From Pseudodesulfovibrio sp. (GTDB lineage: Bacteria > Desulfobacterota > Desulfovibrionia > Desulfovibrionales > Desulfovibrionaceae), in assembly GCA_016744135.1 (NCBI GenBank), contig JADGEX010000001.1:1809029-1873028 (forward strand): DNA of 64,000 nt, given 5' to 3'. Below, one piece after another: positions 41,366 to 46,226 of this stretch; positions within the stretch are counted from its first letter, which is position 1, and every line of letters starts with the position of its first letter. The notes beneath the pieces are model-generated. The model was not told the DNA's origin. It saw only the letters and a list, made by a program, of their open reading frames with translations, and did no database searches. Made by a program: the position numbers and the translations under genes.

Positions 41366-42805
41366 ATGCTTAAAAAATTATACACCATATGTCTGTTGGT
41401 CATGCTCACGCTCCTTTTGACACCGAGCCAAGGCCGTTGCCATCCTCACGTATTCGTGGACGCATCGTTGACCTTTTTCGTGGATGACTCGGGCCTGACA
41501 GGTGTCCGTGAACATTGGCTTTTTGACGATATCTTTACCCAGGCCATTCTGAGTGATCTGGGCCTTGATGCAGACAGTCTGCCGACGACTCTCGGCCAGG
41601 AGAAAATCCGGGATGGAGCCTTTGCCTACCTCGTGAACTTCGGATACTTCACGCTCATTGAATCCGAAGGAAAACGCATACCCGTTTCCAAAACAGAAGG
41701 GTTCCGCGCTTCGTTGGAAAACGGTCGCCTAGTCTACGACTTTCTCGTTCCGCTGAACCTGCCCTTTGAACACATCAAGAATTTTCGCATGGCCGTGTTC
41801 GACGAAGAATATTATTCGGACGTCGTGCTGGTCAAAGATAACATCTCTTTCGAGATAGACGGTATGGCTCAGGTCAGCCACACCGTCAGACCGGCAAAAG
41901 ATCATACATACTGGAAATTCATCGTTCCAGAAGCCGTCCACCTGTCGATCTCCAACTCCCCTTCCACTGCACCAGCGCCAGAAACCGCTCAGTTTGAAGA
42001 AATCGAAGGGCCCGGTCCCATCGAACAACTGATGACACTGGTTCGCTCCACGCAAAAACAACTGACGCAAAGACTCAACGGATTCGGCATGCAGCTCAAG
42101 GGCAACCCCTTCGGGCCTGCCCTGTGGATGTTCCTCGGCCTTTCATTCCTGTACGGCATTGTCCACGCCGTAGGTCCCGGCCATGGCAAAGCAGTTGTCT
42201 GCTCTTATTTTCTGAGCAACCCGGGGTCCCTGATGAACGGTGCTCTGATGGGAAATGCCATTACATTTGTCCATATGGGTTCCGCAGCCGTGGCCGTCGG
42301 TGCGGCCTATCTAATCTTTTCCTCTGGTATGGGAGGCTTCGCTGCCGCCAGTCGCGCCCTACAACCAGCCAGCTATGCACTCCTTGCACTCATGGGGCTT
42401 TTCCTGCTGATCAAGGCAATTCGTGACATCCTCAAGGGCGGCATGCTCGCGGACCCATCATGTGGTCACAGTCACGACGAACCAAAAGGCGGCGATCTCA
42501 AATCCATTCTGTCCGTCTCCTTTATCACAGGCCTCGTGCCATGCCCGGGCGCAGCCGTAATTCTTGCCTTTGCCATCGGATTGAATATTTTCTGGATCGG
42601 CATGCTCGCCTTGATCTGCATGGCGGCTGGCATGGGATTAACCACCACTTTGTTCGCTTGGGTCGCTGTAACCGCCCGGTCCGCCACTCTCAAACTCTCC
42701 GGCAAAAACAGAAAAGTTTTCAACCTGCTCTACGCGGGTTTATCCATCTGCGGAGCCGGTACGATCGCCCTATTCGGTTCGGCCCTATTCTTCGGCAGTC
42801 TGTAA
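41366..42805 (+). CDS. DUF1007 - NicO nickel/cobalt exporter fusion
   Basis: This 479-residue protein joins an exported DUF1007 domain (signal about 1-24; HPHVFVDASLTFFVDD, residues ~25-195) to a NicO/RcnA-like permease (about 250-479, six or more TM helices). The permease shows the family motifs HAVGPGHGKAVV and GLVPCPGAAVIL, and a His-rich loop (CGHSHDEPK) probably binds metal. The HPH opening is likely a metal site of DUF1007. The fusion is found in other proteobacteria and should export or import Ni/Co. ATG 41366 is chosen over 41324 because the signal peptide begins there; the ribosome binding site is weak. Confidence 0.88.
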   Translation: MLKKLYTICLLVMLTLLLTPSQGRCHPHVFVDASLTFFVDDSGLTGVREHWLFDDIFTQAILSDLGLDADSLPTTLGQEKIRDGAFAYLVNFGYFTLIESEGKRIPVSKTEGFRASLENGRLVYDFLVPLNLPFEHIKNFRMAVFDEEYYSDVVLVKDNISFEIDGMAQVSHTVRPAKDHTYWKFIVPEAVHLSISNSPSTAPAPETAQFEEIEGPGPIEQLMTLVRSTQKQLTQRLNGFGMQLKGNPFGPALWMFLGLSFLYGIVHAVGPGHGKAVVCSYFLSNPGSLMNGALMGNAITFVHMGSAAVAVGAAYLIFSSGMGGFAAASRALQPASYALLALMGLFLLIKAIRDILKGGMLADPSCGHSHDEPKGGDLKSILSVSFITGLVPCPGAAVILAFAIGLNIFWIGMLALICMAAGMGLTTTLFAWVAVTARSATLKLSGKNRKVFNLLYAGLSICGAGTIALFGSALFFGSL

Positions 42806-43494: not shown

Positions 43495-44604
43495 ATGATT
43501 ATCGGTATCCCCAAGGAAATCAAAACACTTGAGAATCGCGTTTCCATGACCCCCGGGGCTGTGGAATCTCTGGTACGTCACGGCAACAAAGTGCTCGTCG
43601 AAGCTGGAGCCGGTCTTGGCAGTGGCCTGACCGATGCTGAGTACGAGACCGCAGGTGCCGCCATGGTATCCGCCGAGGAAGCATGGGGCGCGGAAATGGT
43701 CATCAAGGTCAAGGAACCACTGGATTCTGAATTCAAGTACCTCCGCAAAGGTCTTATCCTGTTCACCTACCTGCATCTGGCTGCTGCCGAGTCCCTGACT
43801 CACGCTCTGCTGGAATCCGGCACCACCGGCATCGCCTACGAAACAGTTGAATCCCCGGACCACACCCTGCCACTGCTTACCCCCATGTCCGAAGTGGCTG
43901 GCCGTATGGCAACACAGGTCGGCGCACACCACCTTGAAAAGACTCAGGGCGGCGAAGGAATTCTCCTCGGCGGCGTTCCCGGCGTATATCCGGCAGAAGT
44001 CATGGTTATCGGTGGCGGCGTGGTCGGCACTAACGCGGCTCGCATTGCCATGGGCATGGGCGCTCGCGTAACCATCCTCGATCTTTCCCACCAGCGTCTC
44101 CAGTATCTGGACGAAGTATTCCAGGGCCGCATCACCACCATGATGTCCACCGAGCCGAATATCCGTCAGATGATCACCAAAGCTGACCTTGTTGTCGGCG
44201 CGGTGCTCATTCCCGGCGCAAAGGCTCCGAACCTCATCACCCGCGACATGCTTTCGCTCATGAAAAAAGGTTCCGTCATCGTTGACGTCGCCGTTGATCA
44301 GGGTGGCTGCGTAGAGACCATCAAAGCCACCACGCACGACGATCCCACATACATCGTGGACGGCGTGGTTCACTACGGCGTAGCGAATATGCCCGGCGCA
44401 GTTCCCCGCACCTCCACCTTCGCATTGGTCAACCAGACCACGCCGTACGCCCTGCGTCTGGCCGCCAAGGGCGTTGATGCCCTCAAGGACGATCCGGGCC
44501 TGGCTCTCGGCCTGAACACTTACAAGGGCAAACTGACCTGTCCCGCTGTCGGCGAAGCCTTTGGCATGGAGTCCCAGACTCCCGAAGAAGCTCTCGGCAT
44601 ATAG
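43495..44604 (+). CDS. ald: Alanine dehydrogenase
   Basis: Ald interconverts L-alanine and pyruvate plus ammonia with NAD. The 369-residue protein has the family opening [21 protein letters not shown] split by convention here, the catalytic Lys (MVIKVKEP) and His (LFTYLHLA), and a Rossmann site ([20 protein letters not shown]). ATG 43495 has AAAGGAG upstream; the longer frame to 43420 overlaps the regulator gene and is rejected. A strong terminator follows. Confidence 0.97.
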
Positions 44605-44638: not shown

Positions 44639-44676
44639 AAAGGCCCCGATCAATTGATCGGGGCCTTTTTTTGCGC
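44639..44676 (+). terminator. Intrinsic terminator of ald
   Basis: A perfect stem, AAAGGCCCCGATCAA against TTGATCGGGGCCTTT, is followed by a T-tract. Confidence 0.94.
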
Positions 44677-44719
44677 TTTGCAACAGGCTCGGATATGGTG
44701 CGCCGACAAGGAGTTCCCA

Positions 44720-45067
44720 ATGAAAAAAGACATCCTCTTCACTCTGCCCGCCAGCTTCATGAATGGTATAGACGGCCCGTTGTTCTGACCGGAATGTGCA
44801 ATCCTGGAAGGATTGCTTGGCTACTTTCCTCAATTGCGGGAAGAACTTGATGTCAAAACCATCGAATTCGTACGTCCCAGAGCCTCAATCATCACATTTC
44901 TCGGTGAAAAAAATCAGGAATGCCCCTGCCTGATTCTGGCAGATCCGACCAAAGCAAAAGGGCTGCCGATCCAACAATATGGACCGCACACCTTCATCAC
45001 CGACGACAAAGTCATCATCGAATATCTGGCCCGCAACAACGGCATCAGCCGCCCAGCGCACGACTAA
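44720..45067 (+). CDS. DUF3088 thioredoxin-like selenoprotein (in-frame UGA = Sec23)
   Basis: Reading from ATG 44720 (AAGGAG six bases upstream) gives MKKDILFTLPASFMNGIDGP, then LF, an in-frame TGA (44786-44788), then PECAILEGLLGYFPQLREEL and on to TAA at 45065, 115 residues if TGA is decoded. Both sides match one DUF3088 protein: the family has F-C-x-x-C-A-x-x-E-G at this point, and TGA takes the place of the first Cys, giving U-P-E-C. Downstream RPRASIITFLGEKNQECPC also matches the family. A hairpin 16 bases after the TGA fits a bacterial SECIS element. UxxC replacing CxxC is the classic redox selenoprotein pattern, and Desulfovibrionaceae make selenocysteine. The function of DUF3088 is unknown. 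The alternative is a nonsense mutation in a Cys codon. Confidence 0.8.
44786..44820 (+). promoter_or_regulatory. Candidate bacterial SECIS element
   Basis: After the UGA (44786-44788) comes a seven-pair stem GCAATCC (44798-44804) / GGATTGC (44810-44816) with the loop TGGAA. The loop begins 16 bases after the UGA and has a G in its first two positions, which are the features expected for SelB-binding hairpins. A CC/GG pair (44789-44790 with 44819-44820) could extend the lower stem. Confidence 0.7.
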
Positions 45068-45113: not shown

Positions 45114-46226
45114 TTATTTGCTCACGGAAAGCTTTTGCCCCGGCCTGATCGTGGACTTGGTTGAGAGCTTGTTCAGCTTGCAAAGCTGCCAAAGACTCAT
45201 TCGGTGTTTCCGGGCTATCGCCGTCAAGGAATCCCCCCGTTTGACCACATAGGTCTTGGGCTTGAGGGTTTTCCGGTACTTGGCGATAAGAGGATGATAC
45301 CGCTTGGCAAAATCTCCTGCCGCTCCTTGCGGCAAATAGAGAATATGATCGCCTCTTGGGATGGTATCGGACAGCAATTGCGGGTTCAAATCTCGAATAT
45401 TTTTATAATATGTCTTAGCGGCCTTGGCTACGAGAGTAACCGGTGTCGCATATTTGGCCTTGAGCTTAATACGATCGAACTGCTTCGGCGAATAATAATC
45501 ACCGGGTCGCAAATCAAATCCATAGCGGGCTGGATCGGACAAAATGAGCTTGGCAGCAATGGCGCGAGGAATATACCGTTGTGTCTCACGGGGCAGATGA
45601 AGCCGGTAATAATCCTTAACCTCCTGCTTCTCGATCCGCTTTTTCAATCCCTGCTCGCCCATATTGTACCCGGCACACCCGAGTGTCCATGAGCCAAACA
45701 TGTCATGCAACTCGTTCATATACCGAACGGCAGCTTTGGTGGCCGAATAGAAATTACGCCGCTCATCTATGGAATAGTTCACGACAAGTCCATAGTTCCG
45801 CGCTGTAGACGGGATAAACTGCCAAATACCACGCGCCCCTTTGTTTGAACCGGCATGGGGCTTGAGAGCACTCTCGATGACCGCGATATACTTGAGATCA
45901 TCGGGCATATTTGATCCCTTGAGCACGACTTCAATATGCGGGAAATACCGTCCTGTCCGCTTGAGCCAAAGGATGACCTGCGCACGATCCCAAAGCATAA
46001 GCAGCAGTTCCTTTTCCAGTCGTTCACGCACTTCAGGTAAATGAACGGGGACATATTCACCGCAAAACTCAAGCGGGCCGCGAATACGAATGGCCGATTC
46101 CAATGAAGGAAAAGCCGCGACTTTCATGGGTTCGGTAAGGGCTGGCGACTGAGCAAACCCTGACGCCGTCAAAAAGAACAGCAAAAAAACCGCCAAAAGC
46201 GGAATATGACCACGCCTTATGGGCAC
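45114..46226 (-). CDS. MltD-like lytic transglycosylase with LysM domain
   Basis: This 370-residue exported enzyme cleaves peptidoglycan glycan strands. After a signal peptide (LLAVFLLFFLTASGFA) come an SLT domain with catalytic Glu (VIESALKPHAGSNKGARGIW; about residue 115), AGYNMGEQG, and a C-terminal LysM repeat (KRGDSLTAIARKHRMSLWQL). It starts with GTG 46226 behind GGAG. It converges on the DUF3088 gene, leaving 46 bases between the stops. Confidence 0.93.
   Translation of the reverse strand: MPIRRGHIPLLAVFLLFFLTASGFAQSPALTEPMKVAAFPSLESAIRIRGPLEFCGEYVPVHLPEVRERLEKELLLMLWDRAQVILWLKRTGRYFPHIEVVLKGSNMPDDLKYIAVIESALKPHAGSNKGARGIWQFIPSTARNYGLVVNYSIDERRNFYSATKAAVRYMNELHDMFGSWTLGCAGYNMGEQGLKKRIEKQEVKDYYRLHLPRETQRYIPRAIAAKLILSDPARYGFDLRPGDYYSPKQFDRIKLKAKYATPVTLVAKAAKTYYKNIRDLNPQLLSDTIPRGDHILYLPQGAAGDFAKRYHPLIAKYRKTLKPKTYVVKRGDSLTAIARKHRMSLWQLCKLNKLSTKSTIRPGQKLSVSK

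Follow-up and report, generated by a model that had tools for sequence, protein, structure and literature searches.

The window is the whole stretch of DNA that was analysed, 64,000 nucleotides long. Within the window, a gene for a protein of the DUF3088 family (Pfam PF11287) is flanked by the genes for alanine dehydrogenase and an SLT transglycosylase, and its frame carries an in-frame TGA that is predicted to encode selenocysteine (Sec). The genes and features of the locus are as follows.

43495-44604, plus strand: alanine dehydrogenase gene, upstream neighbour
44639-44672, plus strand: GC-rich palindrome followed by a T run, 3' of the alanine dehydrogenase gene (read from the sequence)
44708-44713, plus strand: AAGGAG ribosome binding site, 6 nt 5' of the ATG (read from the sequence)
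44720-45067, plus strand: predicted DUF3088 selenoprotein gene, 115 aa with the TGA read through, stop codon TAA
44786-44788, plus strand: in-frame TGA, codon 23, predicted to encode Sec where the CPxC motif has its invariant first Cys
44795-44797, plus strand: TGT, codon for Cys26 (UPEC motif), which may act as the resolving Cys
44798-44816, plus strand: predicted bacterial SECIS hairpin, 8 bp (GCAAUCCU/AGGAUUGC), GGA apical loop at 44806-44808
45114-46226, minus strand: SLT transglycosylase gene with LysM, convergent downstream neighbour

The frame at 44720-45067 comprises 116 codons (115 residues and the stop), running from the ATG at 44720 to the TAA at 45065-45067, and it contains only one in-frame TGA. 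Standard gene-calling software will probably truncate genes of this kind at their TGA or place their start too far downstream. When the TGA was read as a residue, residues 3-110 matched positions 1-111 of the 112-position DUF3088 model with an E-value of 8.4e-29 and a score of 100.2 bits against the curated cut-off of 26.4, which places the protein in PF11287. The initial annotation had described a single family match broken by a lone TGA at residue 23 and preceded by a good ribosome binding site, and both descriptions hold, as no indel is needed to join the two parts of the match and the AAGGAG stands at the expected place. The palindrome at 44639-44672 looks like a terminator that would divide the alanine dehydrogenase gene from the DUF3088 gene; in a terminator scan, the palindrome (44639-44668) was called terminator-like for the minus strand alone. 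No sigma-70-type promoter was detected ahead of the DUF3088 gene by a consensus scan, none of the 22 Rfam matches in the DUF3088 region reached its gathering score, no NCBIfam model reached its cut-off for the DUF3088 protein, and a phage protein search with this protein returned no match. Further upstream, at 41366-42805 of the window, lies a gene in which DUF1007 is fused to NicO (nickel-transport-like).

To place the TGA among relatives, we searched for DUF3088 in each of the 348 genomes retrieved for the order; 36 of these constitute the genus. Eleven of the 348 carry it, the window's own genome (G000) included, and all of them belong to the window's genus. The TGA form is present in seven of these carriers (G000, G287, which is of the same species as G000, G312, G311, G304, G303 and G296) and the Cys form, with the codon TGC or TGT, in the other four (G285, G291, G293 and G298). 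In the oriented translations all seven TGAs fall in the same alignment column, opposite the Cys of the four others, so that the UGA/Cys pairs for which the initial annotation had proposed a search do exist within the genus. None of the 11 genes has a TAA or TAG inside the matched stretch, and each TGA gene has its one TGA and no other stop. In the class of G599, a carrier more remote from the window's genome, DUF3088 was found in 6 of 257 genomes, all without stops and all with a CPDC motif, and in a phylum sample of 395 genomes it was found in the window genome and G599 only; in total, TGA is carried by 7 of the 17 DUF3088 genes located in whole genomes. Plasmids contributed 41 homologous records, all below 60% identity, and the six in which the motif was examined all have Cys at the TGA position. 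The identity of the Cys forms to the window protein is 32-65%. Two further loci (L028 and L029), found by scanning genome contigs with the window protein, were dropped, their translations reading as UDP-galactopyranose mutases that share a QQYGPHTF stretch; a UDP-galactopyranose mutase model also matches weakly in the NCBIfam search.

The alignment of 22 protein sequences, made up of the window protein, nine of the other ten genus copies (G296 was left out), six copies from the G599 class and six plasmid copies, has 12 invariant columns: L6, F7, position 23, E30, G31, P37, P53, R54, Q66, P69, I99 and L103. Position 23 is Cys, or TGA read as Cys, in all 22 sequences, in agreement with the earlier placement of the TGA at the family's first CxxC Cys; the second Cys of the motif (Cys26) is present in 19. 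Downstream of the TGA, the comparison of G000 with G312 gave a Ka of 0.12 and a Ks of 0.38 (Ka/Ks 0.32), and that with G311 a Ka of 0.18 and a Ks of 1.36 (Ka/Ks 0.14). G304 gave a Ka of 0.30 and a Ks of 1.98, and G303 a Ka of 0.36 with synonymous sites saturated. Ks exceeds 1 in 12 of the 15 pairs of intact copies, and the finite Ka/Ks values range from 0.14 to 0.36, the closest pairs giving the largest ratios. Such ratios at high Ks indicate that the downstream frame is under constraint, unlike a dead reading frame.

Immediately after the UPEC motif, the letters at 44798-44816 form a hairpin, GCAATCC and GGATTGC enclosing TGGAA, with a G at the second loop position. The stem starts at the 10th base after the TGA (a 9-nt spacer), and the loop begins after 16 nt, or after 17 if a U-A pair closes the stem. 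The stem, the five-base loop and its G had been described correctly in the initial annotation, and it is the start given there, 16 bases after the UGA, that needs correction, since that distance is close to the position of the loop. Hairpins were scored by an exact-stem scan under the published bSECIS limits (PMC13188914), namely a loop of 3-9 nt, a stem of 4-16 bp, a G within the first two positions of the loop, a UGA-to-loop distance of 16-37 nt and a minimum free energy of -7.5 kcal/mol or lower. All six intact TGA genes fall within these limits, each with an 8-bp stem and a GGA loop 17 nt after the TGA, and their energies are -9.4 (G000), -9.4 (G287), -9.1 (G312), -11.0 (G311), -8.5 (G304) and -10.2 (G303) kcal/mol; the bSECIS-type scan suggested earlier thus returned -8.5 to -11.0 kcal/mol in six of six. 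The four Cys genes of the genus gave 0, 0, -5.4 and -4.0 kcal/mol, where the two non-zero values belong to hairpins placed elsewhere, and energies in the six G599-class Cys genes ranged from 0 to -3.7 kcal/mol.

Across the five distinct TGA rows, 40 of 40 cells of the hairpin alignment are paired, and three pairs have changed on both sides (compensatory changes). Slid versions of the alignment reach at most 55% pairing, and five Cys genes at the hairpin site reach 60%. In the shuffle control 8 of 500 shuffles paired as fully, a figure obtained with only five distinct and related rows. We also kept each protein fixed and generated 4000 synonymous recodings per gene, with codon usage taken from the window's ATG open reading frames (both strands, 350 aa or longer). 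The observed energy was reached by 0.53% of recodings for G000, 0.80% for G312, 0.80% for G311, 1.3% for G304 and 0.10% for G303; in G293 and G298, whose genes carry Cys, the corresponding values were 8.1% and 18.7%. As background, a hairpin of -7.5 kcal/mol or better follows 2.9% of 12,113 codon positions in window reading frames of at least 350 aa, and 7 of the 152 Cys codons in those frames precede one. Folds of the whole segment lie 0.7 sd (61 nt), 1.6 sd (64 nt) and 2.1 sd (46 nt) below those of shuffled sequences.

Among the 16 Cys genes scored, three pass -7.5 kcal/mol, all of them among the six proteobacterial plasmid copies (Agrobacterium, -8.5; L053, -9.3; L056, -12.6 kcal/mol). Since half of the plasmid Cys genes pass, generic hairpins are not specific. 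The Cys-type gene on the Agrobacterium plasmid NZ_CP048527.1 (L051) has an 8-bp, GGA-loop hairpin at the site matching the SECIS of the Sec forms, with an energy reached by 4.5% of recodings. The coding sequence at this site may favour such a stem, and the Agrobacterium hairpin could be due to chance, or to a coding bias that could ease a switch from Cys to Sec. A single hairpin is weak evidence, and the strength lies in the conservation of the hairpin.

The genome of the window encodes the complete selenocysteine machinery. In G000, the tRNA-Sec gene (selC) scored 78.7 bits (cut-off 47), selB, which was sought in this genome only, 398.8 bits (cut-off 242), selA 612.5 bits and selD 340.8 bits. 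All four genes are therefore present, and a genome without selA-D, which had been named beforehand as an outcome against a selenoprotein, is excluded. Matches to tRNA-Sec, selA and selD over their cut-offs were found in all 11 DUF3088 carriers. Other genes of the genus provide a yardstick for the hairpin: in the selD genes of G000, G287, G312 and G302, a stem of 7-8 bp topped by a GGA loop comes after an in-frame TGA, and in six full-length formate dehydrogenase genes (from G000, G303 and G304) the TGA precedes an 8-bp stem that ends in a U-A closing pair and carries a GGC or GGG loop. Two shorter formate dehydrogenase-like matches have a 6-bp stem and a GGUCU loop, and one of them, at -7.4 kcal/mol, lies just outside the limit. 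The predicted DUF3088 hairpin is built like those of the six full-length formate dehydrogenase and four selD genes, sharing with them a stem of 7-8 bp and an apical loop starting with GG, but its distance from UGA to loop is 17 nt, compared with 23 nt in the full-length formate dehydrogenase genes and 20 nt in selD.

Given the TGA/Cys column, the conserved hairpin, the constrained downstream frame and the presence of selA-D, which together support the proposal of a probable DUF3088 selenoprotein with a UxxC motif, we predict, with a probability of about 0.94, that 44720-45067 encodes a 115-residue selenoprotein of the putatively thioredoxin-like DUF3088 family. A pseudogene, in which the TGA would be an ordinary nonsense mutation, is extremely unlikely as an explanation of this gene. 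It does describe one of the seven TGA copies, that of G296 (L027, G296:C14:2206-5484), which keeps the TGA and has its N-terminal part in another frame; R54, P69 and L103, all invariant in the other 22 sequences, are changed, and its hairpin is down to -1.4 kcal/mol, outside the bSECIS limits. We read this copy as a probable pseudogene, and an assembly error could explain its frame, but hardly its other changes. The pattern that the initial annotation had set against its own reading, relatives with the TGA but with no hairpin and a decayed frame, thus fits one copy in seven, and the other six keep both the hairpin and a constrained frame. In these six intact copies, which come from five species, the TGA is retained with no other stop and with purifying selection downstream of it, and the hairpin covaries, all of which speaks against a nonsense mutation.

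It is also very unlikely that the UGA is read as another amino acid, or that two products arise by re-initiation at the TTG at 44813, in either case without selenium. An 84-aa open reading frame does begin at that TTG, yet its product would lose the invariant Cys/Sec and be split from the invariant L6 and F7. As for read-through without Sec, the alternation of TGA with Cys is the usual Sec signature, and a SECIS-type hairpin is found together with all the sel genes; TGA is also not generally reassigned, because G304, G311 and G312 use it as the stop codon of this same gene. A sequencing or assembly error is scarcely credible, as the TGA recurs in seven genomes, three of which are single-contig assemblies (G287, G311 and G312).

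For the predicted selenoprotein, the insertion mechanism would be the ordinary bacterial one. SelB with Sec-tRNA, both encoded in the genome, would bind the hairpin just after the UGA and deliver selenocysteine at codon 23 in place of termination, so that Sec would occupy the position that is an invariant Cys in the alignment of the family. The most likely job of the protein would be that of a glutaredoxin- or GST-like selenol oxidoreductase, in which the selenolate would attack a disulfide, a persulfide or another substrate with oxidised sulfur. The intermediate would then be resolved either by Cys26, the Cys of UPEC, or by a second thiol. Since some family members lack the second Cys, the protein may instead run a monothiol cycle.

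Pfam assigns DUF3088 no function. PMC3091736 assigns the family to the thioredoxin-like clan, its best HHpred matches being glutaredoxin 2 and GST_N, of which GST_N is the top Pfam match, and a table in PMC12828279 connects it with the electron transport chain, with glutathione metabolism and with Fe-S-cluster biogenesis. Single-sequence structure prediction of the window protein gave a pLDDT of 35, PDB sequence searches with it gave no convincing match, and its profile matches to thioredoxin or DsbA (E 0.23-0.43) ranked below zinc-finger matches (E 0.0018). Among the 22 aligned members, weak Pfam matches were obtained to Thioredoxin_9 in two (best E 0.002) and to a zinc ribbon in five (best E 0.0012). 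The putative thioredoxin-like fold of DUF3088 rests on the HHpred scores published in PMC3091736. In such a fold, residue 23 may stand where helix 1 begins, facing P69 as a candidate cis-Pro.

The gene neighbourhoods were also compared. In 8 of the 12 annotated plasmid neighbourhoods, DUF3088 has near it a monooxygenase-type gene of the flavin-dependent (LLM or FMN) kind, accompanied in five by an acyl-CoA dehydrogenase-family gene and once by msuE, and the remaining four are without a monooxygenase-type gene; these counts refer to flanks of 1.5-3 kb, include some closely related records and leave aside two unannotated ones. Such plasmid gene sets (monooxygenase, acyl-CoA dehydrogenase, msuE) presumably recall organosulfur use. 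At the proteobacterial plasmid loci L055, L070, L053, L054 and L076, DUF3088 adjoins flavin monooxygenase-type and acyl-CoA dehydrogenase-family genes, which offers a lead to function. Within the genus, a radical SAM gene lies 3' of DUF3088 in G293 and G298 (Cys forms) and G303 (TGA form), and a rhodanese-YceI fusion gene lies downstream in G293, G298, G303 and G291 (loci L049, L050, L048 and L045), the identities of both being taken from a Pfam run on one gene of each. A sulfur-handling redox role for DUF3088 would fit these neighbourhoods.

On a tree of 23 protein rows, two switches between Sec and Cys are required (bootstrap range 2-3), each of which may have run in either direction, and well-supported branches force two. 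Six of the seven TGA genes fall within a well-supported clade (99/100). The remaining one, that of G303, stands outside this clade and shares an unresolved fork with the Cys-type copies from G291, G293 and G298, and the Cys gene of G285 pairs with the TGA gene of G304 (support 94/90). We tentatively suggest, at slightly less than even odds, that DUF3088 may be an unrecognised family of selenol/thiol oxidoreductases acting on reduced or organic sulfur compounds, whose catalytic residue would be marked by a natural Sec/Cys exchange that took place at least twice in one sulfate-reducer-type genus, the SECIS hairpin being gained or lost along with it.

Compared with the Cys forms that DUF3088 takes in Proteobacteria and in same-phylum relatives, the window gene shares the full-length family match and the invariant motif position, but has a TGA codon with a SECIS hairpin in place of the first Cys of CPxC. 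Selenocysteine-containing thioredoxin and glutaredoxin with UxxC are listed as experimentally verified in PMC13188914; the window protein, as predicted from its gene, resembles them in its UxxC motif, in being a small putative redox protein and in the bacterial SECIS right after the UGA, but they belong to PF00085 and PF00462, whereas the window protein matches PF11287 only. The GST-like selenoprotein (PF13409 in PMC13188914, and also found in the ocean survey PMC2398784) is perhaps a distant fold relative by way of the GST_N match of DUF3088, but no UxxC motif is listed for it and the window protein has no PF13409 match. The initial annotation knew of no described DUF3088 selenoprotein, and none was found in the main texts searched, in which PF11287 or pfam11287 goes unmentioned; the protein may have been described under another name. 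Neither PF11287 nor 3088 occurs in the main text of the 2026 selenoprotein catalogue PMC13188914, and neither "selenoprotein" nor "selenocysteine" occurs in the main text of the DUF3088-naming papers PMC3091736 and PMC12828279. The novelty is thus the family, which is not listed as selenium-containing in the main text of the catalogue, and the predicted insertion mechanism is conventional.

The predicted gene would add a selenoprotein family missing from the main text of the catalogue PMC13188914, and would mark a functional residue in a protein family of unknown function. Moreover, Sec and Cys orthologues, some with a SECIS hairpin and some lacking it, can be paired within a single genus, a setting for testing the contribution of selenium and the gain or loss of a SECIS.
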